Shown here: piece after piece, positions 29,458 to 58,914 of the stretch
Numbering within the stretch: position 1 is the stretch's first letter
Layout of the letters: every line of letters begins with the position of its first letter
IMG/VR virus record: IMGVR_UViG_3300042319_002138
Coordinates: 62,001 to 126,000 of that record
Length of the DNA stretch: 64,000 nt
Reading direction: 5' to 3' (one strand)
Source of the DNA: a virus
Program-made: the position numbers and the translations under genes
Notes under the pieces: model-generated
Databases searched by the model: none
What the model saw: only the letters and a program-made list of their open reading frames with translations
Told to the model about the DNA's origin: nothing

Positions 29458-30219
29458 ATGTCAAATCAAGAAAACGAATTTAATTTTGATGCTCCATTCG
29501 ATGTACTAGAGTTACCATCAAAAGGATTATTGTACCCAGGTAGACCATCTACGGTTAGGGTAGAATATCTTACTGCTTCCGATGAGAATATTTTAACTTC
29601 ACCAAACTTAATTAAAAGTGGTAAAGTTTTAGATATTCTTCTACAAAAGAAAATTAAAAGTACAGAAATCTCTTTAGACCAAATGTTAGTTGGTGATAGA
29701 AACTCCATTATGATTTGGTTAAGAGCCACAGGATATGGTGAAATGTATCCAGTTAAAATGATGGACCCTGAAACAGGTGATGAATTTGAAACAGAAATTG
29801 ATTTGTCTGCTTTAGGTACAAAAGAATTAACTGCTGAACCAGATGAAAATGGTGAGTTTGACTTTTTCTTACCTAGAAGTAAAAAGAAAATTAAATTTAA
29901 ATTGTTAACTGTTTCTGATGAATCTTCTATCAGTAAAAAAACAGACCAAAGAAACAAAGCAACAAAATCTTTAATTAGTAACGCTTTAACATATAGATTA
30001 CAGGCACAAATTAAAGAAATTGACGGTAACAGAGACCCTGCTTTCCTTGCTAAGTTTATTGAAGTTATGCCAGCTTTTGATTCTCTAAAGTTTAGAGAAT
30101 ATTCAGACGAAATTGAGCCAGGAATAGAACTGGAGGTGGACGTGGAGGGACCATCTGGTCCATTTCGTAGTCCCTTTAACATTGGACTCAACTTTTTTTG
30201 GCCTAACGCTAGAGTATAG
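29458..30219 (+). CDS. gp26: gp26-like baseplate / tape-measure chaperone
   Basis: The 253-aa protein fits the T4 gp26-type family in its conserved start (FDVLELPSKGLLYPG), the VEYLTASDENIL segment, LLVGDRNSI-like DQMLVGDRNSIMIWLRATGYG, and the later FLTVSDESSI-like region. In T4 gp26 acts in hub assembly. Here it lies two genes before the tape measure, where other phages carry tail-assembly chaperones. The gene ends in GLNFFWPNARV, read through a run of seven T that overlaps a second frame (see the next entry). The 178-bp spacer before it holds the peptidase promoter and an A/T-rich leader. Confidence 0.8.
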   Translation: MSNQENEFNFDAPFDVLELPSKGLLYPGRPSTVRVEYLTASDENILTSPNLIKSGKVLDILLQKKIKSTEISLDQMLVGDRNSIMIWLRATGYGEMYPVKMMDPETGDEFETEIDLSALGTKELTAEPDENGEFDFFLPRSKKKIKFKLLTVSDESSISKKTDQRNKATKSLISNALTYRLQAQIKEIDGNRDPAFLAKFIEVMPAFDSLKFREYSDEIEPGIELEVDVEGPSGPFRSPFNIGLNFFWPNARV

Positions 30220-35122: not shown

Positions 35123-38100
35123 ATGCCAAACGCGATAAACCCAAATGATTATAATATAGATTTTTTCGCCACCGATTTTATTGGTGTTACGACAGCAGAA
35201 AGTTTTAGAGATTATCTTTTTAGTAAAAATTTACCTGACTTACCACCTGAATTAATTAACGGTGCGGCAGGTAACTTTAGTAGTGACTATGCTGAAAAAG
35301 GTTTGGAGAAATCCATTAATTATACAAGTATATCGAATCCCGGTGATATTGATGAGTGGTTGGTGGAGGGTAATTTTTCCACTTCACTTCACGAAGTTAG
35401 AGATATTAATTTATTATCAGGTAATAACTATGGGCCACCGACAATCGAGGCCTATAATGAACCAGGTTTAATACCTGAAAACACAGGTTTCTTACAATAC
35501 CCTACTTCTTCAGGTGGAGACGACCTTAAATCAATTTTATTAAGTGACCAATTAGCAGGTTTAGGACCTGGAGCGGCAATTAATTTTCCTTCAGACTTAA
35601 ATGATATTGCGAAAGATAGAAGAAAAGAAGAAGCTATTAATAGACTTAAACTTAAAGCTCAAGATAATATTTTAGGTAAATTAAATTTAGACCCTTTTGG
35701 ATTATTAGCGGGAGAAGATTTAATCCTTAGAGATTATAAAATCACAACAAGACCGACAGTTTTAGGTAAGGTATTTGAATTTTTTAGTGATGCAGCAGAT
35801 GTAACAATACCGAATAGTCCAATACCGTCAGGTGCCTTTGGTTCCTACGGAGATTTAGATAACCCAGTTTCGTATTCCGATTTAATGGACTCTACTGGTT
35901 CTGGTACAAAAACTTTAATCTATAACGCTGTAGCTAGAAATAAATACGGACCTACATTAAGTGAACCAAAAGGTTTCTTAGCAAATACTTTTGGAGCAGG
36001 ACAAGCTGCACAAAAAAATAATTATTTATCACCCGCTAGTACAACATTAGGACAAGCGTTAGGAATTCCTTTAATAGATAAAATAAATCAGGCTGTAGGA
36101 AAAGCGGTTGACGCTTTAAATGGTGGGGTTAATAACGGGGTTGGTATAGAAGGAAATACACCACCCACAGAAACAGAAAACCCATCAATCACATTAGACA
36201 ATATCCAAGAAAACGCACAGGCTGAATTTGATACATTATGGAATGGTCAAAATATAGATACTTGGCAAACACAGGGACCCATAACTAAAATAGAGATACC
36301 TGGTATTGGATTAAGTCTAACTATTCCTGATAATGGACCCGATGGACCTATAGGTACAAAAATACCTATGAATGTTGGTGATGAATTTTACCCAGGAGAA
36401 ATAAATGGTTCTAAAAATAGTGGTATATCTTATGATAGGGGAATGTATTGGGGTAGTCACACCAACAACCCATTTAAAAAAGGTATTTTAAAATACACAC
36501 AAGATTTAATTAATAATTCTAGAAATACAAAAGATTATAAAGATAAAGCAAGATTTGTCGGTGCAACAAACGACGCCTCAAATTTTGATGCAAAAAGTGG
36601 TAGACATAATAATTACTCTATGGGTAACACCGTTACTGATGCAGAAAACAATTTTTATTGTCGTTCTTGGTCTGTAAGAAATCCATACAGAAAAGTTAGT
36701 GATTTAATTAGACACGGAGGTGGTGTTGATTCTTCTGGTAATACAAGAAGTTTAACAAGAGAAGATTTAAATTTAAGTGTATTAGATAATAATGGTTTTG
36801 TTAAAATAGCACCATATGTTGGGGATTTTAAATCTAGAAGTTTCAGCACTGATGGTAGTGAAAATAATTTAGAATCTGGTGTATTAAAATTAGGAAATCC
36901 ACAAATTCAAAAATACATGTTGTCTATTGAAAATTTAGCTTGGCAAAATAGTGAACATATATTACATGTTGCTCCTTGTGAGGTAGGACCTAACGGTGGA
37001 CGTATAATGTGGTTCCCACCCTATGATATTAGTTTTACCGATAACTCTAGTGCCAATTGGGAAGCAACAAGTTTTATTGGTAGAGGTGAACCTGTGTACA
37101 CTTACAATAATACCGAAAGAAGTGGTACCCTTAGTTTTACCTTGATTATTGACCACTCAATGGCAATGACTGAAATAAAACAAAAGGGGGAAGAAGCTTT
37201 ATTTAGATATTTCGCTGGATGTGAAAATCCAATAGAAGCCTTTACGTCAATTGTACCTAAAGCAGTTGAAGATGAAACAAAGGTACAACAAGTTACAGAA
37301 ACAACAACAACTAAAACTGATGTAACTAAAGATAACCCTGAAGTTTGTGACCCTGAACCACCACCAGTAACTAAGTTACAATTTTATTTTAGGAATGCTA
37401 GAAGATTTGAATTAGATTCTGTTGGTACAAACTTAACAACTGAATTAGGTTCTAATGCTGATGAAAAACCACCCAATTATTTATCTCAATATACTAAACT
37501 TTGGCCTAATGGTTATTTAAGAGGTAGTTCAGGTACACCACCACCTACCATACCTAACCCGAATAATCCTGGTCAGTTTATACCTAACCCTGCTTTTACA
37601 TCTAGTACACAAACTGATATAGAAACTTTAAACCAACAAGCTTTAGACAATTTAAATACTTTAGTTGATTTCTTATTAACACCTGACGGTAAAAGATATA
37701 AAATTAAAATTATTGGTAAAACAAGTGATGCAGGACCAACTTCAGGTGGTAAAAGTAATGAAAAATTAGCTCAAAAACGTGCTAATTCAACAAAAGATTA
37801 TTTATTAAACACACTTTACGCTGTAGAAACAGCTGTTGGTGTTGTTAAAGCAGAAAATTTAGGTTCACAAAAAACATACCCAACGGAAAAAGAATGGCGA
37901 GATAGTAATTTAAGATGGGAAGTTTTAGCTGTTGGTGAAACCGATTCTAGTTTATCAGTATCTTATGATGATGGTACTGGACAAAAAACGGAACAAAAAG
38001 ATGATAATAGAACTTTTGGTGATTCACAAACAAGTGTACCACAAGCTATAAGAAATAGAACAACACTAGTTACTTTAGAATATAATAAAGAAATTGATGA

Positions 38101-39496
38101 TACTTTAATTGGTGCGGCACAACCACCAATAACAGAGCAAACAGAACAAACAGTAGTTACTGTTAGAGATGTTGAAACCACAATACCCGCTAGTAAAGAA
38201 AAAATAGAAAGACAACGTGAAGCTGAATTAGCTGCAGCGTTAGCAGCGAAAGCTTCTAGATACATGGCTTGGGAATGTTCTTATTTTGAAAAAATGAAAC
38301 AAGATGATTCATTTATTTATGAAACATTAACACAGAAATTAAAATATTTCCACCCAGCATTTCACTCAATGACACCTGAAGGTTTTAATGCTAGATTAAC
38401 ATTCTTAAAACAATGTACAAGACAAGGACCTAACATTGCTGTAGGTGAACCTAGTAATTTAGCATTTGGTAAACCACCTGTTTGTGTTTTAAGAATTGGT
38501 GATTTTTATCATACCAAAATTATTATAGATTCAGTTAATTTAACTTTTGACCCATTACAATGGGATTTAAATCCTGAAGGTATTGGTGTACAACCAATGT
38601 TATGTAAAGCTGATTTAAGTTTTAAATTTATTGGTGGTTCTTCACTAGGTGGACCTATATCACAATTACAAAATGCAGTAGGATTTAACTTCTTTGCTAA
38701 TACGGCCTTATATAACCCAAGAGTAATTTCTAAATCGGTTGGTAAATATGTAACAAAAAGGGTTGACCCACTTACAGGACAAGAAACTGAATTTACAGTA
38801 CAAACACCTGCAGGAGCTAATGGTTCTATTGAATACGGTGCTTTCATGACACCTAGACAATCAACATCAACAAGTTTATCTAATAATGACTCTAATGGGT
38901 CTACATCAAATTCTAGTACAGATACGGTACCAAATGATAAAGCAAAAGCTACAGCTGATGCACAACAAGCGGACCAACAAGTAGCTGGTAAAGAGGCACA
39001 ATCAACAGTTGCTGAACAAACTAAAGTTGACCAAGAGTTCACTAAAAAAGAAGAAGAAATAGCTGATAGCTCAACAGCAGAAAATGATGGTGTGAAAGGA
39101 AATACATTCCCTGGATTTGATAAAAAGACTGGTGTATATACAATGCAATATACACAAATATTAACATGGAAAAAAGGTGGTGGAACAAATGCCGCACCTG
39201 CCGGTGTTAATAAGTTAAAGGTAGAAAAAGGACAAAAAGTTTATTTACAAACTACCACAAACGGAAAAGAAATTTTTATTGGTGGTTCATTTAAAAACCC
39301 TGATAATAATAAAGTATATAGTACAATAAACAACCCTCTTAGGGTATACTGTAACGGGGATAACGGTTTCAATTTCTTCTTTGTAGAATCATCTGGAAAT
39401 AGTGGTTTTTATACAAACACAGGATTCTATAATGTGGTAAAAAAAGTATTCTGTAAAGGTACTGTACCTAAAACATGGGCTGAATTAACAGCATAA
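35123..39496 (+). CDS. Large baseplate protein with OmpA-like domain
   Basis: The 1457-aa protein contains, at about residues 610-690, a segment common in contractile-tail proteins: ENLAWQNSEHILHVAPCEVG, then GRIMWFPPYDISF, and FIGRGEPVYTYNNTERSGTL. Residues ~815-950 are OmpA-like: IKIIGKTSDAG and SNEKLAQKRANSTKDYLLNT, the peptidoglycan-binding pattern. Residues ~1070-1220 (KYFHPAFHSMTPEGFNARLT, VCVLRIGDFYHTKIIIDSVN) resemble proteins that sit next to the hub in other phages. The end (~1320-1457) is a Cys-containing beta domain. It starts a cotranscribed run with gp53-like, Hint-bearing and hub genes. Its exact T4 counterpart is not clear. Confidence 0.78.
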   Translation: MPNAINPNDYNIDFFATDFIGVTTAESFRDYLFSKNLPDLPPELINGAAGNFSSDYAEKGLEKSINYTSISNPGDIDEWLVEGNFSTSLHEVRDINLLSGNNYGPPTIEAYNEPGLIPENTGFLQYPTSSGGDDLKSILLSDQLAGLGPGAAINFPSDLNDIAKDRRKEEAINRLKLKAQDNILGKLNLDPFGLLAGEDLILRDYKITTRPTVLGKVFEFFSDAADVTIPNSPIPSGAFGSYGDLDNPVSYSDLMDSTGSGTKTLIYNAVARNKYGPTLSEPKGFLANTFGAGQAAQKNNYLSPASTTLGQALGIPLIDKINQAVGKAVDALNGGVNNGVGIEGNTPPTETENPSITLDNIQENAQAEFDTLWNGQNIDTWQTQGPITKIEIPGIGLSLTIPDNGPDGPIGTKIPMNVGDEFYPGEINGSKNSGISYDRGMYWGSHTNNPFKKGILKYTQDLINNSRNTKDYKDKARFVGATNDASNFDAKSGRHNNYSMGNTVTDAENNFYCRSWSVRNPYRKVSDLIRHGGGVDSSGNTRSLTREDLNLSVLDNNGFVKIAPYVGDFKSRSFSTDGSENNLESGVLKLGNPQIQKYMLSIENLAWQNSEHILHVAPCEVGPNGGRIMWFPPYDISFTDNSSANWEATSFIGRGEPVYTYNNTERSGTLSFTLIIDHSMAMTEIKQKGEEALFRYFAGCENPIEAFTSIVPKAVEDETKVQQVTETTTTKTDVTKDNPEVCDPEPPPVTKLQFYFRNARRFELDSVGTNLTTELGSNADEKPPNYLSQYTKLWPNGYLRGSSGTPPPTIPNPNNPGQFIPNPAFTSSTQTDIETLNQQALDNLNTLVDFLLTPDGKRYKIKIIGKTSDAGPTSGGKSNEKLAQKRANSTKDYLLNTLYAVETAVGVVKAENLGSQKTYPTEKEWRDSNLRWEVLAVGETDSSLSVSYDDGTGQKTEQKDDNRTFGDSQTSVPQAIRNRTTLVTLEYNKEIDDTLIGAAQPPITEQTEQTVVTVRDVETTIPASKEKIERQREAELAAALAAKASRYMAWECSYFEKMKQDDSFIYETLTQKLKYFHPAFHSMTPEGFNARLTFLKQCTRQGPNIAVGEPSNLAFGKPPVCVLRIGDFYHTKIIIDSVNLTFDPLQWDLNPEGIGVQPMLCKADLSFKFIGGSSLGGPISQLQNAVGFNFFANTALYNPRVISKSVGKYVTKRVDPLTGQETEFTVQTPAGANGSIEYGAFMTPRQSTSTSLSNNDSNGSTSNSSTDTVPNDKAKATADAQQADQQVAGKEAQSTVAEQTKVDQEFTKKEEEIADSSTAENDGVKGNTFPGFDKKTGVYTMQYTQILTWKKGGGTNAAPAGVNKLKVEKGQKVYLQTTTNGKEIFIGGSFKNPDNNKVYSTINNPLRVYCNGDNGFNFFFVESSGNSGFYTNTGFYNVVKKVFCKGTVPKTWAELTA

Positions 39497-39507
39497 AATT
39501 TTAAAAT

Positions 39508-39822
39508 ATGGCAATATACTACGATAGATATAGAGATTTCAGGAAAGACGGTATGGTAACAACCTTACCGTTTATAAAAATACCTGTAAAACCATCAGAC
39601 AAAAGAATTGTTACGGATAATAAAACAAGATTTGATAAAATAAGTCAAACTTATTATGGGAATCCCTTCCATGGTTGGTTGATATTACAAGCTAATCCAG
39701 AATTCGGTGGTTTAGAGTTTGACATTCCTGAAAATACAGTTATAATAGTACCATTTCCTTTAAACAAATCATTAGAGGAATACCAATCTCAAGTAGAGAG
39801 ATATAAAAGATTATACGGATAA
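39508..39822 (+). CDS. gp53: gp53-like baseplate protein with LysM-like fold
   Basis: The 104-aa protein contains RFDKISQTYYGNPFHGWLIL, QANPEFGGLEFDIPENTVII and VPFPL at residues ~45-93, a LysM-like arrangement (D-x-I, YYGNP, a WxxIxxxNP segment and a Pro-rich end) as in T4 gp53 and tail protein X. In T4, gp53 completes the baseplate wedge and joins it to the hub. It is shorter than T4 gp53 (196 aa). It is spaced 11 and 14 bp from its large neighbours, so all three are in one operon. Confidence 0.7.
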   Translation: MAIYYDRYRDFRKDGMVTTLPFIKIPVKPSDKRIVTDNKTRFDKISQTYYGNPFHGWLILQANPEFGGLEFDIPENTVIIVPFPLNKSLEEYQSQVERYKRLYG

Positions 39823-39836
39823 ATAATAAGTTTTTT

Positions 39837-42800
39837 ATGGCACTTAATCAAGGACCACAACCAAAAGTTCAAGATATGGGTAACGGAATTAGATACGTTG
39901 ACCCAAACCCAACAGATGAAATAGTTAATCACGAAGACTTGGTGATGTATGTAAAACTAGTTGCTAGGTCTAAAGGTAGAAGTATCTTAACATTTGATGA
40001 CGCTAATGACCAAGTTACTAATATTGTAGAACAAAGAAATGTAAAATCAGAAACTAACTTCACATACCCAACAGGTAAAGATAGTATTGATACTAGTTGG
40101 ACTAACATTGGGGGTGGTAACTTAAACTTTGGTGAAGATTTAGGTTCATTTGGTATCACAAATATTAATATAGAATTTAAATCTAGTTTCATGCCACAAA
40201 TTGTAATTGATTTTGTGGATGTTCGTGGAGCAGCTTTATTTGAACAAGGACCCTGTTCACCTTACGCAGTCTTTTTTCACTTACCTTACCCTGTTTTTGA
40301 ATTAACAGTAAAAGGATATTATGGTAGACCAGTTACATACACATTAGCTTTAACTAAATTTAATACAAAATTTAATTCGGACACAGGTAACTTTGAATCG
40401 AAAGCAGAATTTGTGGGTTATACTTATGCATTCTTAGCGGATATCCCTATGGGATATGTTATGGCAGCTGGATTTATGGAAAAACCACATAATGGTAAAG
40501 ATATTTTGGCTGAAAAATGGAAATTATTAATGGATAAAAAAGTTTTGGTTAATAATGTAGAAACACCATTAATAGACCAAACGTCATTCACTGATGCTAC
40601 AAAACCTATAAACGTTTATGATTTAATTAAATCCTCTAAAAAACTAGAATCAAGAACAAGTGAATTAAAAAATTCTACACAAGTAACCAATTTAGGTAAA
40701 ATTAATAAAACCAAAAATGAGTTAAAGGGGTTACGAGAATCAGTTTTAGAATTTAGACAAAAATTTTTAGAAAAAATAGCTAATTCCCCCAATGGTGGGT
40801 ATAGAATTAGTCCCAATACTACAAACCAAAAAAACACATTATATTTAAAATTACCCAACGTTAGTGCATCAGATGATAATCCAGTATTAGTTGAACTTAA
40901 AAAAGTAGTTGAAACTTATTTTGGTACAGGGGAAAACTCTCAATTAGGTGGTACTATAGGTGCAAAATATAATTCCGTAAATAGTTATTACACAAATAAT
41001 GCTATTGATGGACCACCAATACTTTCTTGGGATACAATTAAAACTAATGCTTCTGGATTTTTCGGTACACCAATAAATATAGTTGATGGTTTAAGAGATT
41101 ATTATATTGATATATATGAAAGTTTATTAAAACCTATTGATGTTGCTAGTGTAGAACTTAATAAAAAATATATAATTGAAAAAGATAATACTAAAAATTT
41201 CTTAAACAAAGAAGTTGTGACCACGTTAGGTTTTTTACCTACAATTAGTAATGTTTTTGCTATAATTCTAACAAACGTTGAGGTATTTCTAGAATTACTA
41301 TTAAGAACTTCTCGTGACGCAGAAAAATATCACCAAGAAAATAATGTGAATATTGGCCTAGATAAAACTGGGCTCCAACAAATTTTAGATTTAAAAGGTA
41401 CCCAAAATAATGGTGCTGAATTATCTGATGAAGAGAACGATAAACAAAAAAACAAAGTATATCCTTGGCCAACATATTATGAAAAGAAACAAGGTTCTGA
41501 TAGTGAAGTTGGGGATAAAGAAACATACCCAGGGGAAAATCCCGAATTTGTTAGTTGGCCTGAAGTAATATTTGTTGAATCGTTTATTAAAGCTTTAACA
41601 AAATTAAAAGGTGAATTAGCTGTTTTAGAATTACAATTAGAAAATTTACCTGGTTATGATAATTTTGCCCCAATCACACCCTACGAAACTCACGCATTTG
41701 GTGTAGTAGAATCACCAAATAGATGGTTAAAAATACAAAACGGTAGTAGTGACCAAGCTTCTTGGGCTGATTCAATCTATAAAGTAATGGGTGAAAATGC
41801 TTTTATTATTGGTGACTACACTATGATTAATAGTTTAAGTGTTTGGAAATCACAATTAGGTTTTAAAAATGGTTGGGGTGTAGAAACATTAACTAATGGT
41901 AATGGGGCTAGTAATGGATATTCTAACACTGGTAATAAGTATTCTATTAAACCACAAAGATTAGCAGAAAACCCAAAAGTATTACAAAATATTGCTGCAA
42001 ATAACCAATTAGGTAGATATGGTGGTGAAGGATTTACCTACGGTTCACAAGGGAAAGATACAGATTCTTTTAAAAGAAAAATAGTTCCCGCTACCACAAA
42101 AAGAATGAAAGATTGGGGTTATGTTGATGCTTTAAATTTGATGACAACCCTTAAATTAGATGGCGGGGTAAATACGACCCTAGAATGGTTACAAAATGAT
42201 ATTACAACAGCAAAGAAAGATTTTATTATAACAGAAATAAAAAGAGTTTTAACCAATAAACTTAAAACACAAAAATTTGATGAGTGGAAAGTTTCGGCTA
42301 CCGCGGCTATTGGTGGTACACCAGCTCTTGTAGATAAACAATCACAAATATGGAATAGCTATTTCCAATACGTTACAGCTAAAAATGTATTAACACTAAC
42401 AGGCCCAATTTATTTAAATGATAGGGTTGATAGTGCTAAAGATATAAAAATATCAGCAAACCCACATAATAATGACGGAAGTGGAGCTGTTTTAGTAAAA
42501 GACACTGATTTAACAGCAAGAGAAATAGATTTTAGTAGTGATTCATTAATAGAAGAAATTAAAAATGGTTATAAAAAATATTATGCTAGTACTGAAGAAA
42601 CTGATAGTGGTATAGCCGAAAATCTTTTAGAAGTTGGTTCTTTAGCGTATAGATTATTAAAATTCAGGCCAAAAACACCTAGGGACAAACCAACTACCGC
42701 TTATGATACAAAAAAAGTGATAGAGACAGAGGCTGACATAAATTTAAGTAGAGATAAAAATACAAATATGCTTACTTTAGGTGATTATTTTGCACCTAAT

Positions 42801-45014
42801 TTTTATCATACATATGAAAACCTAAAAGACCTACCACAAGAGGGACCAATATTAGATTTAAGTTCATCGAGAACAATTTATGACAGTTATTCTCCAAAAT
42901 ATATATTTTGGTCTAATTTTATGGGTGCCTCAAATACTAATACTTCTGTTGGTTCCGCGGATTCAATAATAAACACACCACTATGGTTACTTAATTATCC
43001 TTTATGGAAAAATTCTTGGCAATACGCTGAGTCTGGTGGTGATAACGGTACCGTGGCTCTTGATGAAGTAGTTTCAATAGTGGCTGGTAAAACTTCTGGT
43101 GAATTTGCTACTTACCTTGGAGAAGATATTGGTACATACCCATCTTACCATAATAAAGCTGATTCAAACCAAAGAAGAAATTGGTCTACTTGGTGGGGAT
43201 TAAATCAGTGGGGTGTAGATAATACTAATAATATATACAAACCATTGGCTTATATGGCGGTAATGTCATTTGGTTTTGATAATTTAAAATCTGAATTTAG
43301 AACAGGACATTTTCCACCTTGGGATGGCAATAGTGATACAGATTTATCATCATTTTCTAATTTCACAACTTCAGCTATTATGGCATATCCACCTAAAGCT
43401 TATATATTATTAATTGGAGCCATTTTATGGAGAATGAAAGAAACTAATTTATTATTATGGGACGAAATAAAACCTACAAAAGACCCTTTTCCTTATGACG
43501 CTAGTATAAATTCAGGGTGGAATAGATTAAATAAATCATACCTTTCTGACAATTCAAATATAGGTATAGATGACATAAACGACCCTGTATGGTTTTTCCA
43601 TACATCTACGTCTAGACCTTGGTTTAAAGGTGGTTCTGTATACGCAATAAAACCAGAACAAAATGCTTTATCTTTTGGTGGTACAAATTCTAGTTATCAA
43701 AGAAGATGGTTAGGTGCCCAAGGGGGTGTAGATAGATGGACCAATGGTGGAGCATCCATAAGTAAAAATTTTGGAACTCAAAAACCAGTAATTATCGGAC
43801 CTAATAACAGTATTAATTTTCCTCCTGGTTTATCTGCTTCTGATTTTAACTTTACAAATTCATTATATCGAGCCGGATGGACTAAATCAAGTTCTATTTT
43901 TGGTAAAAATGATGATAAAGTCCCTAGTAATGGTATATTTAGAAGTGCTGTAGGTAATATTACCAAAGGATGGTTTGACCAATGTAGACCCGACCAAATG
44001 CCTTTTATTTTAAGTGATAGTGGTAGAGGTATTGATTTTACAAGTCCTAAAACATTGGTTATTACTAATCTAAGTACTGAAACAAATAAGAATATCAATT
44101 ACAGTGATAAGACACCTAATTTATTAAATAATAAATACCCTATTTTAAAAGAAGAATGTAAAGAATTAATGTTTATACCAAAAAGTTTAAAAATACAATT
44201 TATTGATGCTTTTGAATCTTGGGCAACAGGTGAAAATGCTAGATGGTTATTAGGCTTAGACCCATTAAATTGGAATGATAATGGTAGTTTAGATAATTGG
44301 TCAACAACAAGTGGTGGTTTTGATAATTCATATGTTTTAAATGGGTATAAAGGATTTTTAACTCAGACTGTTAGAAAAGATAGACAGTATTTAACATACA
44401 CCAAAGAAGATAAGAAAAATTACTATACACAACGTTTTACTTTTCTTGATGAGGGTGAATTATCTGGCACAAAACCAAAACCAAAAAAACAAAAGAAAAG
44501 TAATAGTAATACTGATTACGAACCAGCATCACCTACTTATGATGTTTCATGTTTTGTGGCTGGTTCTAAAATTAAGTTAAGTAGTGGTAAAAATATTAAT
44601 ATTGAAGATTTAGTAGTTGGTGATATTGTATTAAGTTATAATGTAAATACAAATATTTTTGAAGAAAGTAGTATTGAAAACGTTACAATAAATTATAAAG
44701 ATAATCTTGTAATTTACAATTTTGATAACGGAATTAAAATAACTTGTACCGATACCCACCCTATTTGGGTTGTTGGTAAAGGTTGGTCTTCTTATAGACA
44801 AACTGATGTAAATGATTCTGAACATATAGGACCCACAAAACAAATTAGTAGTGGTGATGAATGTTTTTATTATTCTAACAATAAATTTAATAAAGTTAAA
44901 ATTTCTAAAATAATTGAAAAACAAAATAAAATGGTTAGGGTTTGGAACGTTAAAAACGTTACTGGTAACCATAACTTCATCATAAATAATGTTTTAGTAC
45001 ATAACGTTACATAA
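39837..45014 (+). CDS. 1725-aa baseplate protein with C-terminal Hint domain
   Basis: Residues ~1-230 are a beta-rich start (NIEFKSSFMPQIVIDFVDVR, VFELTVKGYYGRPVTYTLAL) of a type seen in baseplate proteins of related phages. Residues ~230-1540 are long and mostly unrecognised, rich in Asn, Tyr and Trp. A basic linker (KPKPKKQKKSNSNTDYEPAS) leads to a Hint domain at 1572-1723. The catalytic blocks look intact: Cys1572, TDTH in block B, and the closing VLVHN. Only Val-Thr remain after the His-Asn, then the TAA, whose last A is the first base of the next ATG. The protein may cut itself after assembly. It has no clear T4 counterpart. Confidence 0.78.
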   Translation: MALNQGPQPKVQDMGNGIRYVDPNPTDEIVNHEDLVMYVKLVARSKGRSILTFDDANDQVTNIVEQRNVKSETNFTYPTGKDSIDTSWTNIGGGNLNFGEDLGSFGITNINIEFKSSFMPQIVIDFVDVRGAALFEQGPCSPYAVFFHLPYPVFELTVKGYYGRPVTYTLALTKFNTKFNSDTGNFESKAEFVGYTYAFLADIPMGYVMAAGFMEKPHNGKDILAEKWKLLMDKKVLVNNVETPLIDQTSFTDATKPINVYDLIKSSKKLESRTSELKNSTQVTNLGKINKTKNELKGLRESVLEFRQKFLEKIANSPNGGYRISPNTTNQKNTLYLKLPNVSASDDNPVLVELKKVVETYFGTGENSQLGGTIGAKYNSVNSYYTNNAIDGPPILSWDTIKTNASGFFGTPINIVDGLRDYYIDIYESLLKPIDVASVELNKKYIIEKDNTKNFLNKEVVTTLGFLPTISNVFAIILTNVEVFLELLLRTSRDAEKYHQENNVNIGLDKTGLQQILDLKGTQNNGAELSDEENDKQKNKVYPWPTYYEKKQGSDSEVGDKETYPGENPEFVSWPEVIFVESFIKALTKLKGELAVLELQLENLPGYDNFAPITPYETHAFGVVESPNRWLKIQNGSSDQASWADSIYKVMGENAFIIGDYTMINSLSVWKSQLGFKNGWGVETLTNGNGASNGYSNTGNKYSIKPQRLAENPKVLQNIAANNQLGRYGGEGFTYGSQGKDTDSFKRKIVPATTKRMKDWGYVDALNLMTTLKLDGGVNTTLEWLQNDITTAKKDFIITEIKRVLTNKLKTQKFDEWKVSATAAIGGTPALVDKQSQIWNSYFQYVTAKNVLTLTGPIYLNDRVDSAKDIKISANPHNNDGSGAVLVKDTDLTAREIDFSSDSLIEEIKNGYKKYYASTEETDSGIAENLLEVGSLAYRLLKFRPKTPRDKPTTAYDTKKVIETEADINLSRDKNTNMLTLGDYFAPNFYHTYENLKDLPQEGPILDLSSSRTIYDSYSPKYIFWSNFMGASNTNTSVGSADSIINTPLWLLNYPLWKNSWQYAESGGDNGTVALDEVVSIVAGKTSGEFATYLGEDIGTYPSYHNKADSNQRRNWSTWWGLNQWGVDNTNNIYKPLAYMAVMSFGFDNLKSEFRTGHFPPWDGNSDTDLSSFSNFTTSAIMAYPPKAYILLIGAILWRMKETNLLLWDEIKPTKDPFPYDASINSGWNRLNKSYLSDNSNIGIDDINDPVWFFHTSTSRPWFKGGSVYAIKPEQNALSFGGTNSSYQRRWLGAQGGVDRWTNGGASISKNFGTQKPVIIGPNNSINFPPGLSASDFNFTNSLYRAGWTKSSSIFGKNDDKVPSNGIFRSAVGNITKGWFDQCRPDQMPFILSDSGRGIDFTSPKTLVITNLSTETNKNINYSDKTPNLLNNKYPILKEECKELMFIPKSLKIQFIDAFESWATGENARWLLGLDPLNWNDNGSLDNWSTTSGGFDNSYVLNGYKGFLTQTVRKDRQYLTYTKEDKKNYYTQRFTFLDEGELSGTKPKPKKQKKSNSNTDYEPASPTYDVSCFVAGSKIKLSSGKNINIEDLVVGDIVLSYNVNTNIFEESSIENVTINYKDNLVIYNFDNGIKITCTDTHPIWVVGKGWSSYRQTDVNDSEHIGPTKQISSGDECFYYSNNKFNKVKISKIIEKQNKMVRVWNVKNVTGNHNFIINNVLVHNVT
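44550..45005 (+). other. Hint (intein-like autoprocessing) domain
   Basis: Region of the 1725-aa protein, 152 residues. Block A: CFVAGSKIKLSSG with EDLVVGDIVLSYN. Block B: CTDTHPIWV. Block F: RVWNVKNVTGNHNFI. Block G: NVLVHN. No endonuclease domain is inserted. The residue after HN is Val, not Cys/Ser/Thr, so normal protein splicing is not expected. Cleavage as in bacterial intein-like domains or hedgehog-like ester formation are the options. Confidence 0.85.
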
Positions 45015-46942
45015 TGAGTGATAACACAAGATTAGTAGGATTAAAAAAAGATAAAAACAAAGAACTGTATGAAGAATTATTTGTAACTGATTCTAAATAC
45101 CGTTTAATTTCTTCATCACCTAAAGTTTTTTCTGCCATACATCCTGATGATTTTAATGAAGAATTTTATATATCTGAGGATGAATTAAGTTCATACGTCG
45201 ACGGATTTATTCAAGCGGTGTCAGACAATTCCAAAAAAATTATTGAGTCAATTACACAAAATACGGATAATAACGATAATATAGCTGATTCCGCTTTAAA
45301 TGACACAGACCTAAAACTTTCTTTATATCGTTCATTTAAATCACTTTACGATAAATGGATTTCTTGTTCTGTAATTGGTTCAGATAGTACTTCGGGTAAT
45401 ACTTCAGGTTATTTCTATAATAACTATGGTAGTAGTAGTCCATCTGAAACAAGGATGTTATATGAACATTTTAGTTTTGTTAATAGAGGTAATGGTGATG
45501 TGGGTAAAAAAGCAGTTATAGATTTTTCATACCTTTCTAATTTAGCTAGTACCAAAAACGGACAAGGGCCAACACAATCCCTATACGAATCTATAACTAA
45601 TTTATTAACAAAAAACAATTTTGAATTTTTTGCAATGCCAAACGTAATTGGGTATTCTACAGGGGGCAATGAAGTTCTTGAAAATATTTTTAGAGCTTTC
45701 GATAGTCCTATAGATAGAATACCCGCTAAACCTGGATTTGTGTGTATGTTTATTGGGGGTAATTCTAGGACATTAGATATACCAAAAACTTCATGTAGTA
45801 ATAATGGTATTAATTTTGATTATGTAGACGATACCTTTGATATAGATAAACCCACTACATACCCAGAAGATTTTATTAAAAATGGTGGTATAACAGCTTT
45901 TAAAGTTAGATACGGACAACAAACCCAAAATCATTTTAAATCTTTAGAACTAGACCAATCCGAATTTAAAGAAACTCAAGAATCACTTTTGGTAATTGAT
46001 GCCTTAACAAATCCTAGTAGTGGCTCAGACCCAACACAAATTGGTAAGGGTAATAATATTTATGATATGTATTTGACAAGAAACTATTCTTGTACTGTTA
46101 ACACATTTGGTAACATGCAAATACAACCAATGATGGTCTTTAAATTAGAGAACGTCCCAATGTATAAAGGAACTTATTTAATTACAAACGTCAGTCATTC
46201 CATAAAACCACACAATGTAGAAACAACATTTAAAGGTGTGAGACAACCAATAGTCACCGTACCTATTGTAACAGAAGCTTTGAGTTTGATTGACCTAGCT
46301 CTAGCTGAAACACTACAAGGAGATGCTGCTTTAGGTAACACTGGTGGGGGAGGTGGAGGAACCACAACTACAACTACAATATTACCAGCCAACCAAATAT
46401 TCATAGACGATACTGTTTATGGAGATAGTTCAAATGAACAATGCCCTAAAATAGACGGTATAACAGATGGTGGTGTTGGTGACGCTTATACCGGTGGTAA
46501 ATTATTTAAAATTAGGTTATGTAAGGTAAAAGGTGCACTTATAAACGTCAAAATGGCGGAAAATTTAAATAATATGGTTAATGCCGCACAAGCGGATGGT
46601 GTACCATTAACTTGTGGTAGTAACTTTAGAACAATGGAAGACCAAATAAATACGGCTAAAGCTAATGGGTGTTATAAAACAGGTGTTTATGTAAAAGGTA
46701 ATTGTGACCCTGATACTGCCACACCAGGGAGGTCAAGACACCAAAGTGGATTTGCAATAGATTTTGGTTGTAATGGGTCGACAATTTGTTATAAACACGA
46801 TTCAGCTTGGTGTGCCGCAAATGGTGCTTCTAAAAAACCAAACGAATATGTTTGTTTTAATTGGTTGGTTAATAACGCCTCAAAATACGGATTTATTAAT
46901 TACAACGGTGAGGCTTGGCACTGGTCAATAGATGGTACATAA
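45014..46942 (+). CDS. Hub paralogue 1 with M15 peptidase cargo
   Basis: The 642-aa protein has the shared hub scaffold at residues 1-440 and a Gly/Thr linker (TGGGGGGTTTTTTI) at ~442-455. The last ~130 residues are an M15 (VanY-type D-Ala-D-Ala carboxypeptidase-like) domain with SRHQSGFAIDFG (H576, D583) and GEAWHWS (E633, H636), the full zinc site. The scaffold end (CTVNTFGNMQIQPMMVFKLE, GTYLITNVSHSI) looks like the hub fold of gp27/gpD proteins. It would place a peptidoglycan-cutting head at the tail tip. The ATG overlaps the TAA of the Hint-bearing gene, so translation is coupled. Cys pairs in the cargo suggest it is stable outside the cytoplasm. Confidence 0.82.
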   Translation: MSDNTRLVGLKKDKNKELYEELFVTDSKYRLISSSPKVFSAIHPDDFNEEFYISEDELSSYVDGFIQAVSDNSKKIIESITQNTDNNDNIADSALNDTDLKLSLYRSFKSLYDKWISCSVIGSDSTSGNTSGYFYNNYGSSSPSETRMLYEHFSFVNRGNGDVGKKAVIDFSYLSNLASTKNGQGPTQSLYESITNLLTKNNFEFFAMPNVIGYSTGGNEVLENIFRAFDSPIDRIPAKPGFVCMFIGGNSRTLDIPKTSCSNNGINFDYVDDTFDIDKPTTYPEDFIKNGGITAFKVRYGQQTQNHFKSLELDQSEFKETQESLLVIDALTNPSSGSDPTQIGKGNNIYDMYLTRNYSCTVNTFGNMQIQPMMVFKLENVPMYKGTYLITNVSHSIKPHNVETTFKGVRQPIVTVPIVTEALSLIDLALAETLQGDAALGNTGGGGGGTTTTTTILPANQIFIDDTVYGDSSNEQCPKIDGITDGGVGDAYTGGKLFKIRLCKVKGALINVKMAENLNNMVNAAQADGVPLTCGSNFRTMEDQINTAKANGCYKTGVYVKGNCDPDTATPGRSRHQSGFAIDFGCNGSTICYKHDSAWCAANGASKKPNEYVCFNWLVNNASKYGFINYNGEAWHWSIDGT

Positions 46943-46948
46943 AATATT

Positions 46949-46995
46949 ATGGGTGATAAAAAAAATTAATAGGATTAAAAAAATAAGATAAAAAT
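46949..46995 (+). pseudogene. Relic of a fourth hub-paralogue start
   Basis: The gap between paralogues 1 and 2 begins ATGGGTGATAAAAA and matches the first ~45 bp of the paralogues with a few substitutions and one 2-bp insertion. It keeps TAGGATTAAAAAAA and AGATAAAAAT. It reads MGDKKN and then stops. It looks like the stump of a lost or partly duplicated copy. Confidence 0.7.
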
Positions 46996-46996
46996 A

Positions 46997-48982
46997 ATGA
47001 GTGATAACACAAGATTAGTAGGATTAAAAAAAGATAAAAATGATGAACTGTACAAAGAATTATTTGTAACTGATTCTAAATACCGTTTAATTTCTTCATC
47101 ACCTAAAGTTTTTAGTGCAATTCACCCTGAAGATTTTGGAGAAGATTTTTATATTTCAGAGGATGAACTAGGTTCTTATATTGATGGATTTATTCAAGCG
47201 GTGACCGATAACTCTCAAAAAATCATTGATTCCATCACACAAAATACAGATAATAACGATAATATAGCTGATTCTGCTTTAAATGACACAGACCTAAAAC
47301 TTTCTTTATATCGCTCATTTAAATCTCTTTACGATAAATGGATTTCTAGTTCAGAATATAACCAACAACAAACATCTAATTATTTTTATAATGCATATTC
47401 AGCAGAAAAAACTGACGAAAGAATGTTATACGAACATTTTAATTTTGTTAATAGATGTGGTACTGACATAGGTAAAAAGGCTGTTATAGATTTTGCTTAC
47501 CTTTCTAATTTAGCTAGTACCAAAAATGGGCAAGGACCTACACAATCACTATACGAATCTATAACTGGAGTTTTAAGTAAAAATAATTTTAATTTCTTAC
47601 CATTACCTGGGTATATTAAATATTCAGACGCAAATACAAGTGAATTAGAAGATATGTTTAGAGCTTTTGATGGTCCACTAACTAAAATGAGAGCAAACCC
47701 TAAATTTGTGTGTATGTTTATTGGTGGTAGTTCTAGAAGTTTAGATATACCTAGGTCTTATTGTGGTACTAACGGAACTAATTTTGAATATAAAGATGAT
47801 TCTTTTGACATATTTGACCCAACCACTTACCCCCAAGATTTTAATAACGATAAAACAAGTGGTATTGTGGCTTTTAAAGTTAGATACGGACAAGAAACCC
47901 AAAACCACTTTATTAAAGTGGAGTTAGACCAAGCTGAGTTTAGGGAAACACAAGATTCACTTTTGGTAATTGACGCTTTGGTAAACCCAAGTAGTGGTTC
48001 GGACCCAACACAAATTGGTAAGGGTAATAATTTATATGATGTTAACTTAACTAGAGGTTACACTTGTAAGGTTGAGACTTTGGGTAACATGCAAATACAA
48101 CCCACAATGTTTTTTAAATTAGAAAATATCCCAATGTTTAGAGGTACTTATCTAATTACAGATGTATCACACACAATCGTACCACATAACGCTAAAACAA
48201 CTTTTACAGCAACAAGACAACCAATAATTACGGTACCAATTGTGACCGAAGCTTTGAGTATATTAGATTTATCTTTAGTTGAAACAGTACAAGGAGACAC
48301 GAATTTAAATAACACTGGAGGTGGAGGAACCACAACAACCACAACAACTGATAATAATTATGACGAATCTACAGTAACAACATTCAGTGGAATTGATGAT
48401 TGTGTAACAACTTCTTTAAATAGTGTTAAAAATGATGGGTCCTTCCCAGTAATCATAAAAGGATGTTATACGGCTAAAGATTTAGGTGGAGACGCCTTAC
48501 ACTCTTTTAATACTAGAAAAAGTGATAATTTTGGTGGTTATATGTTTACTGAATCAGCAGTACCAGCTAATTTTAGTAATAGAGTTAAAGTTGGTACACA
48601 GGGTGGAGTTTATGCTGGAAAAGGTGTTAACACTGTAATAAAAGAAATAAATAGTAAGGGTGTTAAAGTAAAAGTTTCAAAAATAGAAATTAATATAGAT
48701 TGGACTAATTATTTTGTTAGTTGGGCAGTTACAATAGAAAAAAGTACTGACGAAAAATCTTACATTGGAGTAGCTACTAGAGGTTCAATAGGTAGTATAT
48801 CTTCTGGAAACTATTCAGACAGAGCAGATTCACAAATACCGACATTAAAAAGCCAAAACCCAGAATACGCAAATTGGGTTTCACCAAAAATTATTTATAA
48901 TAAAAATATAATGGCAACTGGTTATTTAGAAGACCCTAAAAAACAATTAAGACAATATTTTTTAGCTTATACAAAAGCTTAA
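46997..48982 (+). CDS. Hub paralogue 2 with unknown cargo domain
   Basis: The 661-aa protein starts with the same 44 nucleotides as the other two copies and keeps the hub scaffold to about residue 436. A Gly/Thr linker (TGGGGTTTTTTDNN) at ~438-452 joins it to a ~205-aa C-terminal domain that I do not recognise. This part is beta-rich with a few aromatic turns (FGGYMFTESAVPANFSNRVK, TQGGVYAGKGVNTVIKEINS, VSKIEINIDWTNYFVSWAVT, IGVATRGSIGS). No zinc, Glu or Ser-His catalytic site stands out. By position it should act on the cell envelope as the other two cargos do, either as an enzyme or as a binding domain. Confidence 0.78.
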   Translation: MSDNTRLVGLKKDKNDELYKELFVTDSKYRLISSSPKVFSAIHPEDFGEDFYISEDELGSYIDGFIQAVTDNSQKIIDSITQNTDNNDNIADSALNDTDLKLSLYRSFKSLYDKWISSSEYNQQQTSNYFYNAYSAEKTDERMLYEHFNFVNRCGTDIGKKAVIDFAYLSNLASTKNGQGPTQSLYESITGVLSKNNFNFLPLPGYIKYSDANTSELEDMFRAFDGPLTKMRANPKFVCMFIGGSSRSLDIPRSYCGTNGTNFEYKDDSFDIFDPTTYPQDFNNDKTSGIVAFKVRYGQETQNHFIKVELDQAEFRETQDSLLVIDALVNPSSGSDPTQIGKGNNLYDVNLTRGYTCKVETLGNMQIQPTMFFKLENIPMFRGTYLITDVSHTIVPHNAKTTFTATRQPIITVPIVTEALSILDLSLVETVQGDTNLNNTGGGGTTTTTTTDNNYDESTVTTFSGIDDCVTTSLNSVKNDGSFPVIIKGCYTAKDLGGDALHSFNTRKSDNFGGYMFTESAVPANFSNRVKVGTQGGVYAGKGVNTVIKEINSKGVKVKVSKIEINIDWTNYFVSWAVTIEKSTDEKSYIGVATRGSIGSISSGNYSDRADSQIPTLKSQNPEYANWVSPKIIYNKNIMATGYLEDPKKQLRQYFLAYTKA

Positions 48983-49021
48983 TTATACTATCTGTTTTAG
49001 TTAAAAAAATAATAAAGTAAT

Positions 49022-51559
49022 ATGAGTGATAACACAAGATTAGTAGGATTAAAAAAAGATAAAAACAAAGAACTGTATGAAGAATTATTTGTAACTGATT
49101 CTAAATATAGGCTCATATCTTCTTCACCTAAAGTTTTTTCTGCTATTCACCCCGAAGATTTTGGTGAAGATTTTTATATATCTGAGGATGAATTAAGTTC
49201 TTATGTTGATGGGTTTATTCAAGCGGTGACAGACAATTCCAAAAAAATTATTGAATCAATTACACAAAATACAAATAATAACTCTATTGAGGATAACATG
49301 TCAAGTGACCCAGATGTTAAACTTTCATTATATCGTTCATTTAAATCATTTTATGATAAATGGGTATCTAATTCTTATGATAGTGTAAATAAATCTTCTG
49401 GTTATTTCTTTAATAATTACGGTGAAGAAGATGATAGAATGTTATATGAACATTTTAAATTTATTAATAGAGCAAATCAAGACGTGGGTAAAAAAGCAGT
49501 TATAGACTTTTCATACCTTTCTAATTTAGCTAGTACCAAAAACGGACAAGGGCCAACACAATCACTATATGAGTCATTGACAAGTTTATTAAGTAAAAAC
49601 AATTTTGATTTTTGGCCATTACCAGCAAACATTGATTTATCAACAGTATCATTAACAAATGAACAAGTAAAAGATATTTTTAGACCATTAACATTTATAG
49701 ATAAGGTACATCCAGGACCATCATTTGTTTGTGTTCATATTGGGGGTAGTTCTAGGTCTCTAGCTGATTTAAAAGACAATAGTAATACTTGTAGTGTTAA
49801 TGGTGGTAATTTTGAATATGTTGATGACTCTTTTGATATTACAAATACAGTAGATTTACCGGTTGAATACACTAAAGAAGGTGAGGGTTTAGTTGTTTTT
49901 AAAGTTAGATATGGGCAAGAAGCACAAAATCATTTTAACTCAATAGAGTTAGACCAAACAGAATTTAAAGAAACACAAGAATCTTTACAAATAATAGATG
50001 CCTTAACAAATCCTAATAGTGGCTCAAACCCATCACAAATTGGTAAAGGTAATAACATGTATGATGTTTATTTAACAAGGGCTTATAATTGTACGGTTTC
50101 AGGTTTGGGTAATATGTCAATACAACCTTTAATGTATTTTAAATTAGAAAACGTACCAATGTTTAGAGGTACTTATCTAATTAATGCCGTTAGCCATACA
50201 ATAACAAATAATAAAATTACTACTGAATTTACTGGTATGAGACAACCCAAAGTAACCGTACCTGTTGTAACTGAAGCTTTGAGTTTAATTGATTTAGCTT
50301 TAGTTGAAGTAGTACAAACTGATACAACTACCACTAATACTAATGGTAATGGAAGTACTACTGATAGTGGTGATTATAGTGGTGGTGATATTTCAGTATT
50401 TAATAGTGTTGATACAAACGCTAAAGGTTGTGAGATTATAGGAAGACTTAAGGGTGATTTGGGTATAACTGATGCACAGGCCGCTGGTATTATTGGTAAT
50501 TTAATTGCTGAATCAGGTTTAATACCTGATAGAATACAAGATAGAAAAGGGAGAAAACCAAGGGGACTTATAACAGAATCTGGTGGATGGAATGGAACTA
50601 CATTTTCTAAAGGTGGGGAAGATGAAGAAGGTTATGGTTGGGCACAATGGACTTTCTATACATTAAAAAATGATTTTATAGAATATGCAAGTACTAAAGG
50701 TTTTGATTTAAAAACAAAACCAGCAACAGATGAAATTAATTATGGTTATTTAATATATTGGTTAACTGTATCAGAAGGTGGTAAAAAATTTGAAAAATTT
50801 AAAAGTGAAGATACAGTTTATAAAGCAGCAAAATATGTTGCTCAAAAATGGGAAAGATGTGAATTTTGTCAAACAGAGGCTGAATGGAAAAAAAGAAGTG
50901 CTTTTGCACAAAACGTGTTTGATAGTTGTGGTAAAACACCAACTGGTGGGGGTGGTACAGGAAAACCACCAGAACCAAAAAATTGTAGTAGTTCTGTTAA
51001 ATTTGGTCTTAATGGTGGTGGTACTTTAGCTAACGCTAAAAACGCTATTGTTGGTTCTTCAAGTGTTGGGACCCTTAATGGTATGAGTAAATCTAGTACT
51101 TACGGTAACTTAACTAGTAATAATATATACGTATACTATAACTGTGGTGGTAAAACACTCTCTTGGTTAAAACAACAAATTAATGGAGACGGTAATGTTT
51201 ACACAAGTGTAGAATCATTCTTCCAAGTAGGTATTGGTACTAATGACGGGTATCCAACAAAGGATAGTACCAAGAAAGATATTAAAGCATATACTGATTT
51301 GGTTAGAAAAAAATTCCCTAACGCTACATTATATATTTTACCTGGTACTCGTGGTTGGGGAAGTGTTTCTAATACTACACTTAGTCAAATGAAATCTTAT
51401 TATAAACAATATACAGATTTAGGTTGGACTTTATTGTGGCCTTTAAATAGTTCTAGTAATGAAATAGACCCTTATTTTGACACACAAACAAAAGCTCACA
51501 ACAGTAATGATGAATGGTTTAAAAAACAAATGAAAAGAATCAAAGATAATAAGAGTTAA
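49022..51559 (+). CDS. Hub paralogue 3 with lysozyme and SGNH-like cargo
   Basis: The 845-aa protein has the hub scaffold to about residue 433 and a Thr/Asn/Gly linker (TTTTNTNGNGSTTDSGDYSG). Residues ~465-640 match the tail lysozyme family (Phage_lysozyme2 type): AAGIIGNLIAESGLIPDRIQ with the catalytic-type Glu, and GYGWAQWT. A GGGGTGKPPEPKN linker leads to residues ~655-845, an SGNH-hydrolase-like domain: AIVGSSSVGT (block I), VGIGTND (block III) and a late DPYFDTQTKAHNS (block V-like). SGNH domains can remove acetyl groups from peptidoglycan or glycans, which would help the lysozyme; this is inference. The block I Ser context is not standard, so the SGNH call is weaker. Confidence 0.8.
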   Translation: MSDNTRLVGLKKDKNKELYEELFVTDSKYRLISSSPKVFSAIHPEDFGEDFYISEDELSSYVDGFIQAVTDNSKKIIESITQNTNNNSIEDNMSSDPDVKLSLYRSFKSFYDKWVSNSYDSVNKSSGYFFNNYGEEDDRMLYEHFKFINRANQDVGKKAVIDFSYLSNLASTKNGQGPTQSLYESLTSLLSKNNFDFWPLPANIDLSTVSLTNEQVKDIFRPLTFIDKVHPGPSFVCVHIGGSSRSLADLKDNSNTCSVNGGNFEYVDDSFDITNTVDLPVEYTKEGEGLVVFKVRYGQEAQNHFNSIELDQTEFKETQESLQIIDALTNPNSGSNPSQIGKGNNMYDVYLTRAYNCTVSGLGNMSIQPLMYFKLENVPMFRGTYLINAVSHTITNNKITTEFTGMRQPKVTVPVVTEALSLIDLALVEVVQTDTTTTNTNGNGSTTDSGDYSGGDISVFNSVDTNAKGCEIIGRLKGDLGITDAQAAGIIGNLIAESGLIPDRIQDRKGRKPRGLITESGGWNGTTFSKGGEDEEGYGWAQWTFYTLKNDFIEYASTKGFDLKTKPATDEINYGYLIYWLTVSEGGKKFEKFKSEDTVYKAAKYVAQKWERCEFCQTEAEWKKRSAFAQNVFDSCGKTPTGGGGTGKPPEPKNCSSSVKFGLNGGGTLANAKNAIVGSSSVGTLNGMSKSSTYGNLTSNNIYVYYNCGGKTLSWLKQQINGDGNVYTSVESFFQVGIGTNDGYPTKDSTKKDIKAYTDLVRKKFPNATLYILPGTRGWGSVSNTTLSQMKSYYKQYTDLGWTLLWPLNSSSNEIDPYFDTQTKAHNSNDEWFKKQMKRIKDNKS

Positions 51560-57498: not shown

Positions 57499-58914
57499 AT
57501 GTTGGGTATGAGTAAAGAAGTTACATTAGGTTATTTAGGATATAAGTTTCAAACAGAGTTTATTAATCAAATTCTACATCCAGCAAATAAAAAATTCTCA
57601 GATAGAATTATCGATATTGTTCACGCGAAATATTTTGATAATGAGTATTTCAGGTTGATTATTGCCACAATAAAAGATTATTTTGAAAGATTTGAAAAAG
57701 TTCCTGCTTGGGATACATTAGAAACTATTCTAAAAGTAGAAATTAAGGATAAGATAACCCAAGATTATGTGTTTGAAATCACAAAAGAAATAAGAAATCT
57801 AGGTGTTGAGGATTGGGAATTTGTTCAGGATAAAGCCTTAAATTTCTGTAGACAACAAGAACTTAAAAAAGCCAACGATAAGATATCAAAAATTATTGAT
57901 GACGGTGATTTTGATAAGTATGAAGAGTGTGCAGATATAATGAAAGAAGCTCTTTCCATCGGAGCTGAAAAAGATGATGGGACATCAATTACCGAAGGTT
58001 GGGATACAGTGTTACAAGAGGATTTTAGACATCCAGTTCCTACGGGAATAAGTGGTATCGACGAATTAACTGACGGTGGTTTATCACGGGGAGAATTAGG
58101 GGTTATTCTAGCACCTTATGGTGTTGGTAAAACAACAATTCTAACCAAAATAGCAAATACCGCATATAATGTGGGGTATAATGTTTTACAAATTGTTTTT
58201 GAAGACATACCTGATGTTATCAAAAGAAAACATGCCGCTTGTTGGAGTGGGATAGAACTTAACTCTCTATCTGACGAAGAAGAAAGAGTCATGGAAGTAA
58301 TTAAAGAAAGAACAAATGGTAAAGAAAACGATTTAGTTATTCGAAAGTTTTCGTCTGAAGGAGTTACGGTTAATCACCTTAAAACCTACGTAAGACATTT
58401 AATTTCAGTTGGGTTTAAACCTGACATGATTGTATTAGATTACATTGACTGTGTTGAATCGGCAAGAAGATATAACGATGAATGGTCAGGTGAGGGTAAC
58501 GTCATGAGAGGTTTTGAATCCATGTTAGCTGAATATGGTATGGTGGGATGGACAGCGGTTCAAGGTAACAGGGCGTCAATCTCAGCTGATGTAGTAACAG
58601 GGGACCAAATGGGTGGGTCAATTAAAAAGGCTCAGATTGGTCACTTTATAATGTCTATCGCAAGAACTCTAACACAAAAAGAAAACAATAGAGCAACGAT
58701 AGCGGTTTTAAAATCTAGATTCGGTAAAGATGGTGTTATCTTTGAGGATTGTACGTTTGATAATGGTCGAGTATTCATTGATACAGAAACTTCAGACACT
58801 TTCTTAGGTTATGAGAGAAAGGTTGAGGAAAGAAAAGATGAGAATGTTCGTGAAAGATTGAAGATGGCAAAACTCAGAAAAAAACAAAAAGATACTGAAG
58901 AAAGTATTAATTAA
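57499..58914 (+). CDS. gp41: gp41-like replicative helicase (DnaB family)
   Basis: The 471-aa protein has a small helical N-terminal domain (~1-155) and a RecA-fold helicase domain: Walker A APYGVGKTT near 205-213, MIVLDYIDCVES (Walker B), a MVGWTAVQGNRAS motif, and an SRFGKDG near the end with an Arg finger-like residue. It matches T4 gp41 (475 aa) in length. It unwinds DNA 5'-3' on the lagging strand as a hexamer and binds a primase. The start could also be the ATG at 57508 (MSKEVTLGYLG). It ends in a charged tail. A primase gene is not in the window. Confidence 0.92.
   Translation: MLGMSKEVTLGYLGYKFQTEFINQILHPANKKFSDRIIDIVHAKYFDNEYFRLIIATIKDYFERFEKVPAWDTLETILKVEIKDKITQDYVFEITKEIRNLGVEDWEFVQDKALNFCRQQELKKANDKISKIIDDGDFDKYEECADIMKEALSIGAEKDDGTSITEGWDTVLQEDFRHPVPTGISGIDELTDGGLSRGELGVILAPYGVGKTTILTKIANTAYNVGYNVLQIVFEDIPDVIKRKHAACWSGIELNSLSDEEERVMEVIKERTNGKENDLVIRKFSSEGVTVNHLKTYVRHLISVGFKPDMIVLDYIDCVESARRYNDEWSGEGNVMRGFESMLAEYGMVGWTAVQGNRASISADVVTGDQMGGSIKKAQIGHFIMSIARTLTQKENNRATIAVLKSRFGKDGVIFEDCTFDNGRVFIDTETSDTFLGYERKVEERKDENVRERLKMAKLRKKQKDTEESIN

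Follow-up and report, generated by a model that had tools for sequence, protein, structure and literature searches.

The hubs of contractile-tailed phages are usually treated as symmetric homotrimers with one enzyme. The initial annotation of the DNA analyzed here took as its background that T4-like hubs carry a single lysozyme on gp27. This background is incomplete, since enzyme-fused hubs are known, such as gp147 of phage 0305phi8-36, a gp27-type hub with one or more wall-degrading domains fused to it (PMC2147016). It was also described that hub-attached domains changed between relatives of this phage (PMC2147016). The hub candidate of Flavobacterium phage immuto, which carries a VanY domain, is a further case beyond this background. 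In the T6SS, a bacterial secretion system, functional mixing of VgrG paralogues or a requirement for multiple effectors was found in V. cholerae and A. dhakensis (PMC8668125).

Here we looked at a window of 64,000 nt, positions 62,001 to 126,000 of the IMG/VR record IMGVR_UViG_3300042319_002138. The fusion of an enzyme to a hub is already known; an ancient and co-maintained set of hub paralogues, as suggested below, appears to be new, and in a limited search of the open-access literature no description of a phage with several co-maintained, enzyme-fused hubs was found.

Three adjacent genes and their genomic setting

The full 226-kb record has exactly three copies of the scaffold, in the adjacent genes A, B and C. 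All three ORFs are intact and have a common start peptide, MSDNTRLVGLKKDKN. Over ~440 residues the scaffold amino acid identity is 73% between A and B, 69% between A and C and 67% between B and C (BLAST E = 0.0); it ends within a linker rich in Gly, Thr and Asn, beyond which the heads diverge completely. The ORFs and the alignment thus bear out the arrangement described initially, i.e., three neighbouring genes with a scaffold of ~435 residues, the same start, a linker and differing heads. The features are:

45014-46942, plus strand: gene A, 642 aa; probably hub-like scaffold and M15/VanY D-Ala-D-Ala carboxypeptidase-type head; A-type clade
45014-45298, plus strand: residues 1-95 of A, uniform among the paralogues (identity, trees, AU tests, dN/dS); equivalents at 46997-47281 in B and 49022-49306 in C
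46091-46231, plus strand: gp27 domain 3-like strands, residues 360-406 of A (hhalign); ~48065-48205 in B and ~50090-50230 in C
46319-46395, plus strand: Gly/Thr-rich linker of A, approximate (alignment); starts near 48293 in B and 50318 in C
46541-46924, plus strand: head of A, VanY (PF02557), with the HX6D...EXXH zinc and catalytic motif intact
46997-48982, plus strand: gene B, 661 aa; probably hub-like scaffold, a duplicate of the A-type, and orphan head
48299-48979, plus strand: head of B, orphan domain of ~210 aa; no relatives found outside this phage
49022-51559, plus strand: gene C, 845 aa; probably hub-like scaffold, phage tail lysozyme and SGNH-like domain
50441-50923, plus strand: first head of C, Phage_lysozyme2 (PF18013; Pfam)
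51014-51556, plus strand: second head of C, SGNH/GDSL-like, from motifs

The head of A passes the Pfam cut-off for VanY (E=2e-13, aa 510-637; HX6D at 576 and EXXH at 633), and the first head of C passes that for Phage_lysozyme2 (E=2.4e-20, aa 474-634). The second head of C passes no family cut-off (GDSL_2, E=0.15, 13.0 bits against a cut-off of 32.9) and contains the SGNH-like motifs G-S-S, GTND and H-N-S-N-D. No significant Pfam, PHROG or NCBIfam match was found for the head of B. The M15/VanY peptidase of A, the lysozyme of C and the matchless head of B therefore stand as first described, and the SGNH-like domain of C is weak and below cut-off. Three further IMG/VR contigs contain the A-B-C block without a mismatch and one more has the first part of A, also without a mismatch, which argues that the block is not an assembly artefact. 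Among these identical contigs no head variation was seen.

Family searches found contractile-tail genes in the record, from which it can be determined that this is a contractile-tailed phage. The following features surround the three genes:

17597-20389: sheath
27212-27700: tube
29458-30219: phrog_150 protein, hub-associated
39508-39822, plus strand: gp25-like baseplate wedge protein (phrog_7145, E=4e-4), used as synteny anchor
39837-45014, plus strand: 1725-aa protein directly upstream of A, with a C-terminal Hint/intein-like domain
61363-63234: wedge-like protein

The order in the window is sheath, tube, phrog_150, tape measure, a large protein, gp25-like protein and the hub slot, followed by SSB, RecA, exonuclease, DnaB and RNR, the same order as in immuto and in part common to Microcystis phage Mel-JY01 and LR756508. 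Behind its gp25-like gene, immuto encodes just one protein, of 938 aa, in which VanY (E=6.6e-10) is the C-terminal domain. In the window this single-hub slot is filled by the 1725-aa protein, with A, B and C directly behind it; the three genes are thus located near the gp25-like gene, as a hub-gene block would be, with the 1725-aa gene intervening.

Some side observations concern other parts of the genome. A 1457-aa protein of the tail block (35123-39496) has an OmpA-like, peptidoglycan-binding domain (aa 834-898, PF00691, E=9e-7). A single tRNA-Tyr (gta) is predicted at 7351-7446 on the minus strand, inside a predicted ORF (6825-8399) with a weak galactosyltransferase PHROG match, and either the ORF or the tRNA prediction may be spurious. 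DnaB-like helicase genes of two related contigs (L038:7729-10224 and L024:16112-17212) have an apparent intein at the same ATPase-loop position; the helicase of the window (57499-58914) is short enough to be without one. As a host clue, the Bacteroidota-type promoter pattern was not significant, with 8 occurrences observed and 5.9 expected.

Relation of the scaffold to gp27-type hubs

The scaffold matches no curated family, and its comparison with hubs is based on a profile of its C-terminal ~145 residues built from 12 relatives. Against four syntenic or related hub candidates, which were chosen by synteny, mutual tblastn links and a C-terminal motif and not by curated annotation, hhalign gave a score of 39.9 (E=8e-5), compared to 26.6 for the best of 200 column shuffles and 18.0 for the reversed control. 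Against 11 members of the T4-type gp27 family the score was 32.6 (E=4.6e-4; best of 150 shuffles, 24.2), at gp27 positions ~308-355, which we take to be the second part of domain 3 in the T4 gp27 structure. Strands of the domain 3 type are thus found near the C-terminus of the hub core, with moderate significance and above every shuffle; the hub match spans only ~50 residues, with hhalign probabilities of 33-61%.

Neither HMMER nor hhalign detected the tube-like barrel of gp27 domain 1 within the scaffold, PF05954 and PF04717 are absent from it, and searches of the scaffold with Pfam Phage_GPD and PDB sequence profiles gave nothing relevant. Between the profile of the four reference hubs and the gp27 family taken in full there was no match, and the ORFs neighbouring in Mel-JY01 gave no significant single-sequence match to the scaffold. 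AlphaFold models of the full B protein and of the C-terminus of the A scaffold (12 rows) reached a pLDDT of 32 and 41, and a PDB fold search returned nothing at E<0.001, with baseplate entries among the matches at E>1. An OB domain, by which, together with a triple beta-helix, a spike-lysozyme of the T4 gp5 type is recognized, was found in none of the three proteins. Because of the profile match to gp27 domain 3 and the gene order, we consider it likely that the scaffold is hub-like, in support of the initial annotation.

One other option is that the scaffold is an anchor at the baseplate periphery, which holds A, B and C as accessory lysins at several equivalent sites, with the 1725-aa protein as the hub. 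This protein directly follows the gp25-like gene, i.e., it occupies the single-hub slot of immuto and Mel-JY01, and in 0305phi8-36 repeated paralogue domains were proposed as virion anchors for other domains (PMC2147016); the short extent of the gp27 match also leaves room for such an anchor. Yet the domain 3-type match sits on the scaffold, and its C-terminal position is the same for both hub families; no match to the hub profiles was obtained with the N-terminus of the 1725-aa protein, and VanY, the same type of head, is fused to the syntenic hub candidate of a relative, immuto. A peripheral anchor is therefore, in our estimate, rather unlikely.

The 1725-aa protein can be suggested as a candidate partner of the hub. 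A split hub, with domain 1 on this protein and domain 3 on A, B and C, was also considered and rejected: by eye their patterns seem similar, but hhalign was unsupportive. Its Hint/intein-like domain (Pfam AXH/Intein_splicing/Hint, TIGR01445; aa 1573-1723, 44553-45005) runs to the stop codon, which the ATG of A overlaps. A similar domain is found in L004, where the protein ends in ...VYN, and apparently in L014, and is absent from the L024 relative; such a C-terminus makes self-cleavage of a virion protein possible.

Outside the window, a gene on the minus strand (G000:C1:36664-38013, L029:2665-4014) encodes a 449-aa protein with a weak match to the gp5/base_V OB domain and without a lysozyme, which makes it a candidate spike; immediately upstream, on the same strand, is a 148-aa ORF. 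Such a separate gp5-OB-like gene elsewhere in the genome fits a hub that is apart from its spike.

Scaffold classes, matched N-termini and replaced heads

Of the collections searched, only IMG/VR gave related contigs; a scan of GTDB genomes and a tblastn search of cultured phages returned no scaffold relative. Contigs L004 and L006, with 3 mismatches in their overlap of 3265 bases, jointly give A, B and C. In the tree of residues 206-432, C-type copies are separated from A/B-type copies with support of 99/99, and B is a duplicate of the A-type in the window and L004 lineages. In the tree of residues 1-95 the copies cluster by genome instead. The AU test rejects a grouping of the three window copies for residues 206-432 (p=2e-77) and a C-type clade for residues 1-95 (p=4e-8). 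Identity over residues 61-95 is 65-97% within genomes, compared to 15-47% between orthologues. Based on these trees, A and C separated before the four compared lineages did, and the N-terminal ~95 residues are kept matched within each phage, while the remainder is class-specific. The shared start noted initially is therefore present, but recent duplication is not a sufficient account of it: A and C separated long ago, and uniformity within a genome is limited to the N-terminal part.

Two processes can account for the matched N-termini. Parts of this region in L014 and L024 are 91-96% identical at third codon positions, which indicates recent gene conversion. In L004/L006 the region has a dS of 0.8-1.2 with a dN of only 0.08-0.13, which indicates that selection also keeps the N-termini equal. 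The simplest reading of N-termini that follow the genome is that all paralogues dock to the same partner, or to each other, through this segment. The position-specific orthologues of L004/L006 further show purifying selection on the scaffold and the retained heads.

The heads follow a different course. In L004/L006, A carries VanY, B carries Phage_lysozyme2 (E=4.8e-12) and C carries Phage_lysozyme2 with an SGNH-like domain, so that the B orthologue has a lysozyme in L004 versus the orphan head in the window. L014 has two copies, an A-type with Amidase_2 (7e-7) and a C-type with Phage_lysozyme2 and an unrelated second domain, which the NCBIfam comparison left out. In L024 a headless A-type copy is followed by a separate TIGR02594/CHAP-like ORF, which also matches phrog_1259 (baseplate hub subunit and tail lysozyme), and then by a C-type copy with a phrog_90 endolysin head. 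The copy of L038 is nearest to the A-type (49% to that of L014) and has an amidase head, 60% identical to the L014 amidase; A-type heads are thus VanY in the window versus amidase in these two lineages. In L013 there is a headless C-type copy, and the gap behind it (L013:1212-1424) contains a possible coding remnant in another frame; this head may have been lost recently. Headless, split and differing heads on orthologous scaffolds indicate that heads were replaced, split off or lost, and the head exchange proposed initially is thus supported over evolutionary time among the related IMG/VR contigs.

All identified A-type heads belong to families that cut amide or peptide bonds, apart from B, the A-type duplicate, with its lysozyme in L004, and all identified C-type heads are lysozyme-like and look glycan-cutting, a rule that is based on few lineages and on family names. 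Since just two copies were seen in two lineages, a strict A:B:C heterotrimer is not the general rule.

A proposed set of hub paralogues compared with known systems

The mechanism that we favour, with somewhat better than even confidence, is an ancient set of gp27-type hub paralogues, in which a docking scaffold with matched N-termini bears envelope-attacking heads on a linker and the heads are replaced. Each of A, B and C would use the common scaffold to dock into the baseplate, and the flexible linker would hold out each protein's own head. The N-terminal ~95 residues would point to a partner in common or to one another, and for this reason would be kept matched within a phage by recombination and selection; the rest of the scaffold would keep its class and the heads would be replaced behind the linker over evolutionary time. 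We infer the head activities and their order of action as follows: on contact, and as the tail contracts, the heads presented at its tip would open the wall by cutting different bonds, the A-type at stem-peptide or amide bonds and the C-type at the glycan, and with such complementary heads a particle would have two or more kinds of cutter for its attack on the wall.

The paralogues would probably come together in one hub, similar to trimeric VgrG spikes that contain several VgrGs; such a mixed hub, one of the two options raised in the initial annotation, is plausible. A stricter version, which we hold only tentatively and with some doubt, is an obligate mixed hub: an A-type and a C-type copy, with B in some lineages, would share one symmetry-breaking trimer that gives every particle an amide/peptide cutter and a glycan cutter, with the N-terminal segment kept identical by gene conversion and selection and the heads exchanged behind the linker.

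Another hypothesis is that each particle has one kind of homotrimeric hub and the virion population is mixed, as bet-hedging on the wall type of the host. Near-identical N-termini would allow each paralogue to dock equally well, and Serratia VgrG1 and VgrG2 apparently form no heterotrimers but distinct versions of the machine (PMC4924876). However, findings on V. cholerae and A. dhakensis speak for spikes with mixed VgrGs or multiple effectors (PMC8668125), so that the T6SS precedents run both ways. Moreover, A-type and C-type copies were already together before the lineages sampled here diverged and have been retained jointly, their heads seem to complement and not to substitute for each other, and the identical contigs vary in no head; alternative homotrimers are therefore improbable. 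Simple redundancy, in which a recent duplication left one working copy and others that drift, would fit the highly identical 5' ends of A, B and C, but is largely refuted already by the deep and old A/C split in the scaffold trees, by the selection on the L004/L006 scaffolds and retained heads and by the intact ORFs, and we give it hardly any weight.

A hub paralogue set of the favoured kind suggests, from the sequences, that one docking part brings several different tools to the bacterial wall. The same docking part with different heads is a natural experiment; the set allows a clear test for heteromeric phage hubs, and the matched N-terminus with its class-specific remainder points to where the interface would be located.

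Compared with the family of T4 gp27 (with gp5) and P2 gpD, the likeness is found in the ~50 C-terminal scaffold residues that align to gp27 ~308-355, in the location of the genes within a contractile-tail block and in the separate, lysozyme-free gp5-OB-like gene. The window phage and its relatives differ in having three or two paralogues, where T4 and P2 have one; in T4 the lysozyme is part of gp5, whereas here the heads are fused to the hub-like scaffold, in which domain 1 is undetected. The hub candidate KNV73_gp033 of immuto resembles A, B and C in its fused wall-degrading domain, yet both immuto and 0305phi8-36, with gp147, have one hub gene per genome and no paralogue set. Rhodothermus phage RM378 p069 shares a hub-like C-terminal motif, by which it was identified, and its lysozyme-like segment matches phrog_90, as does the L024 C-type head; unlike the genes of the window, it is a single gene, in which the enzyme segment precedes the C-terminal hub domain as an insertion. 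The T6SS VgrG sets (V. cholerae VgrG1/2/3 and A. dhakensis) belong to a bacterial machine, VgrG joins the gp27 and gp5 parts in one protein and there is no sequence match to the scaffold (PF05954, PF04717), but they too consist of co-maintained paralogues with different C-terminal effector parts. If the favoured mechanism is true, this phage solves multi-bond wall penetration within one hub type, in parallel to these VgrG sets.
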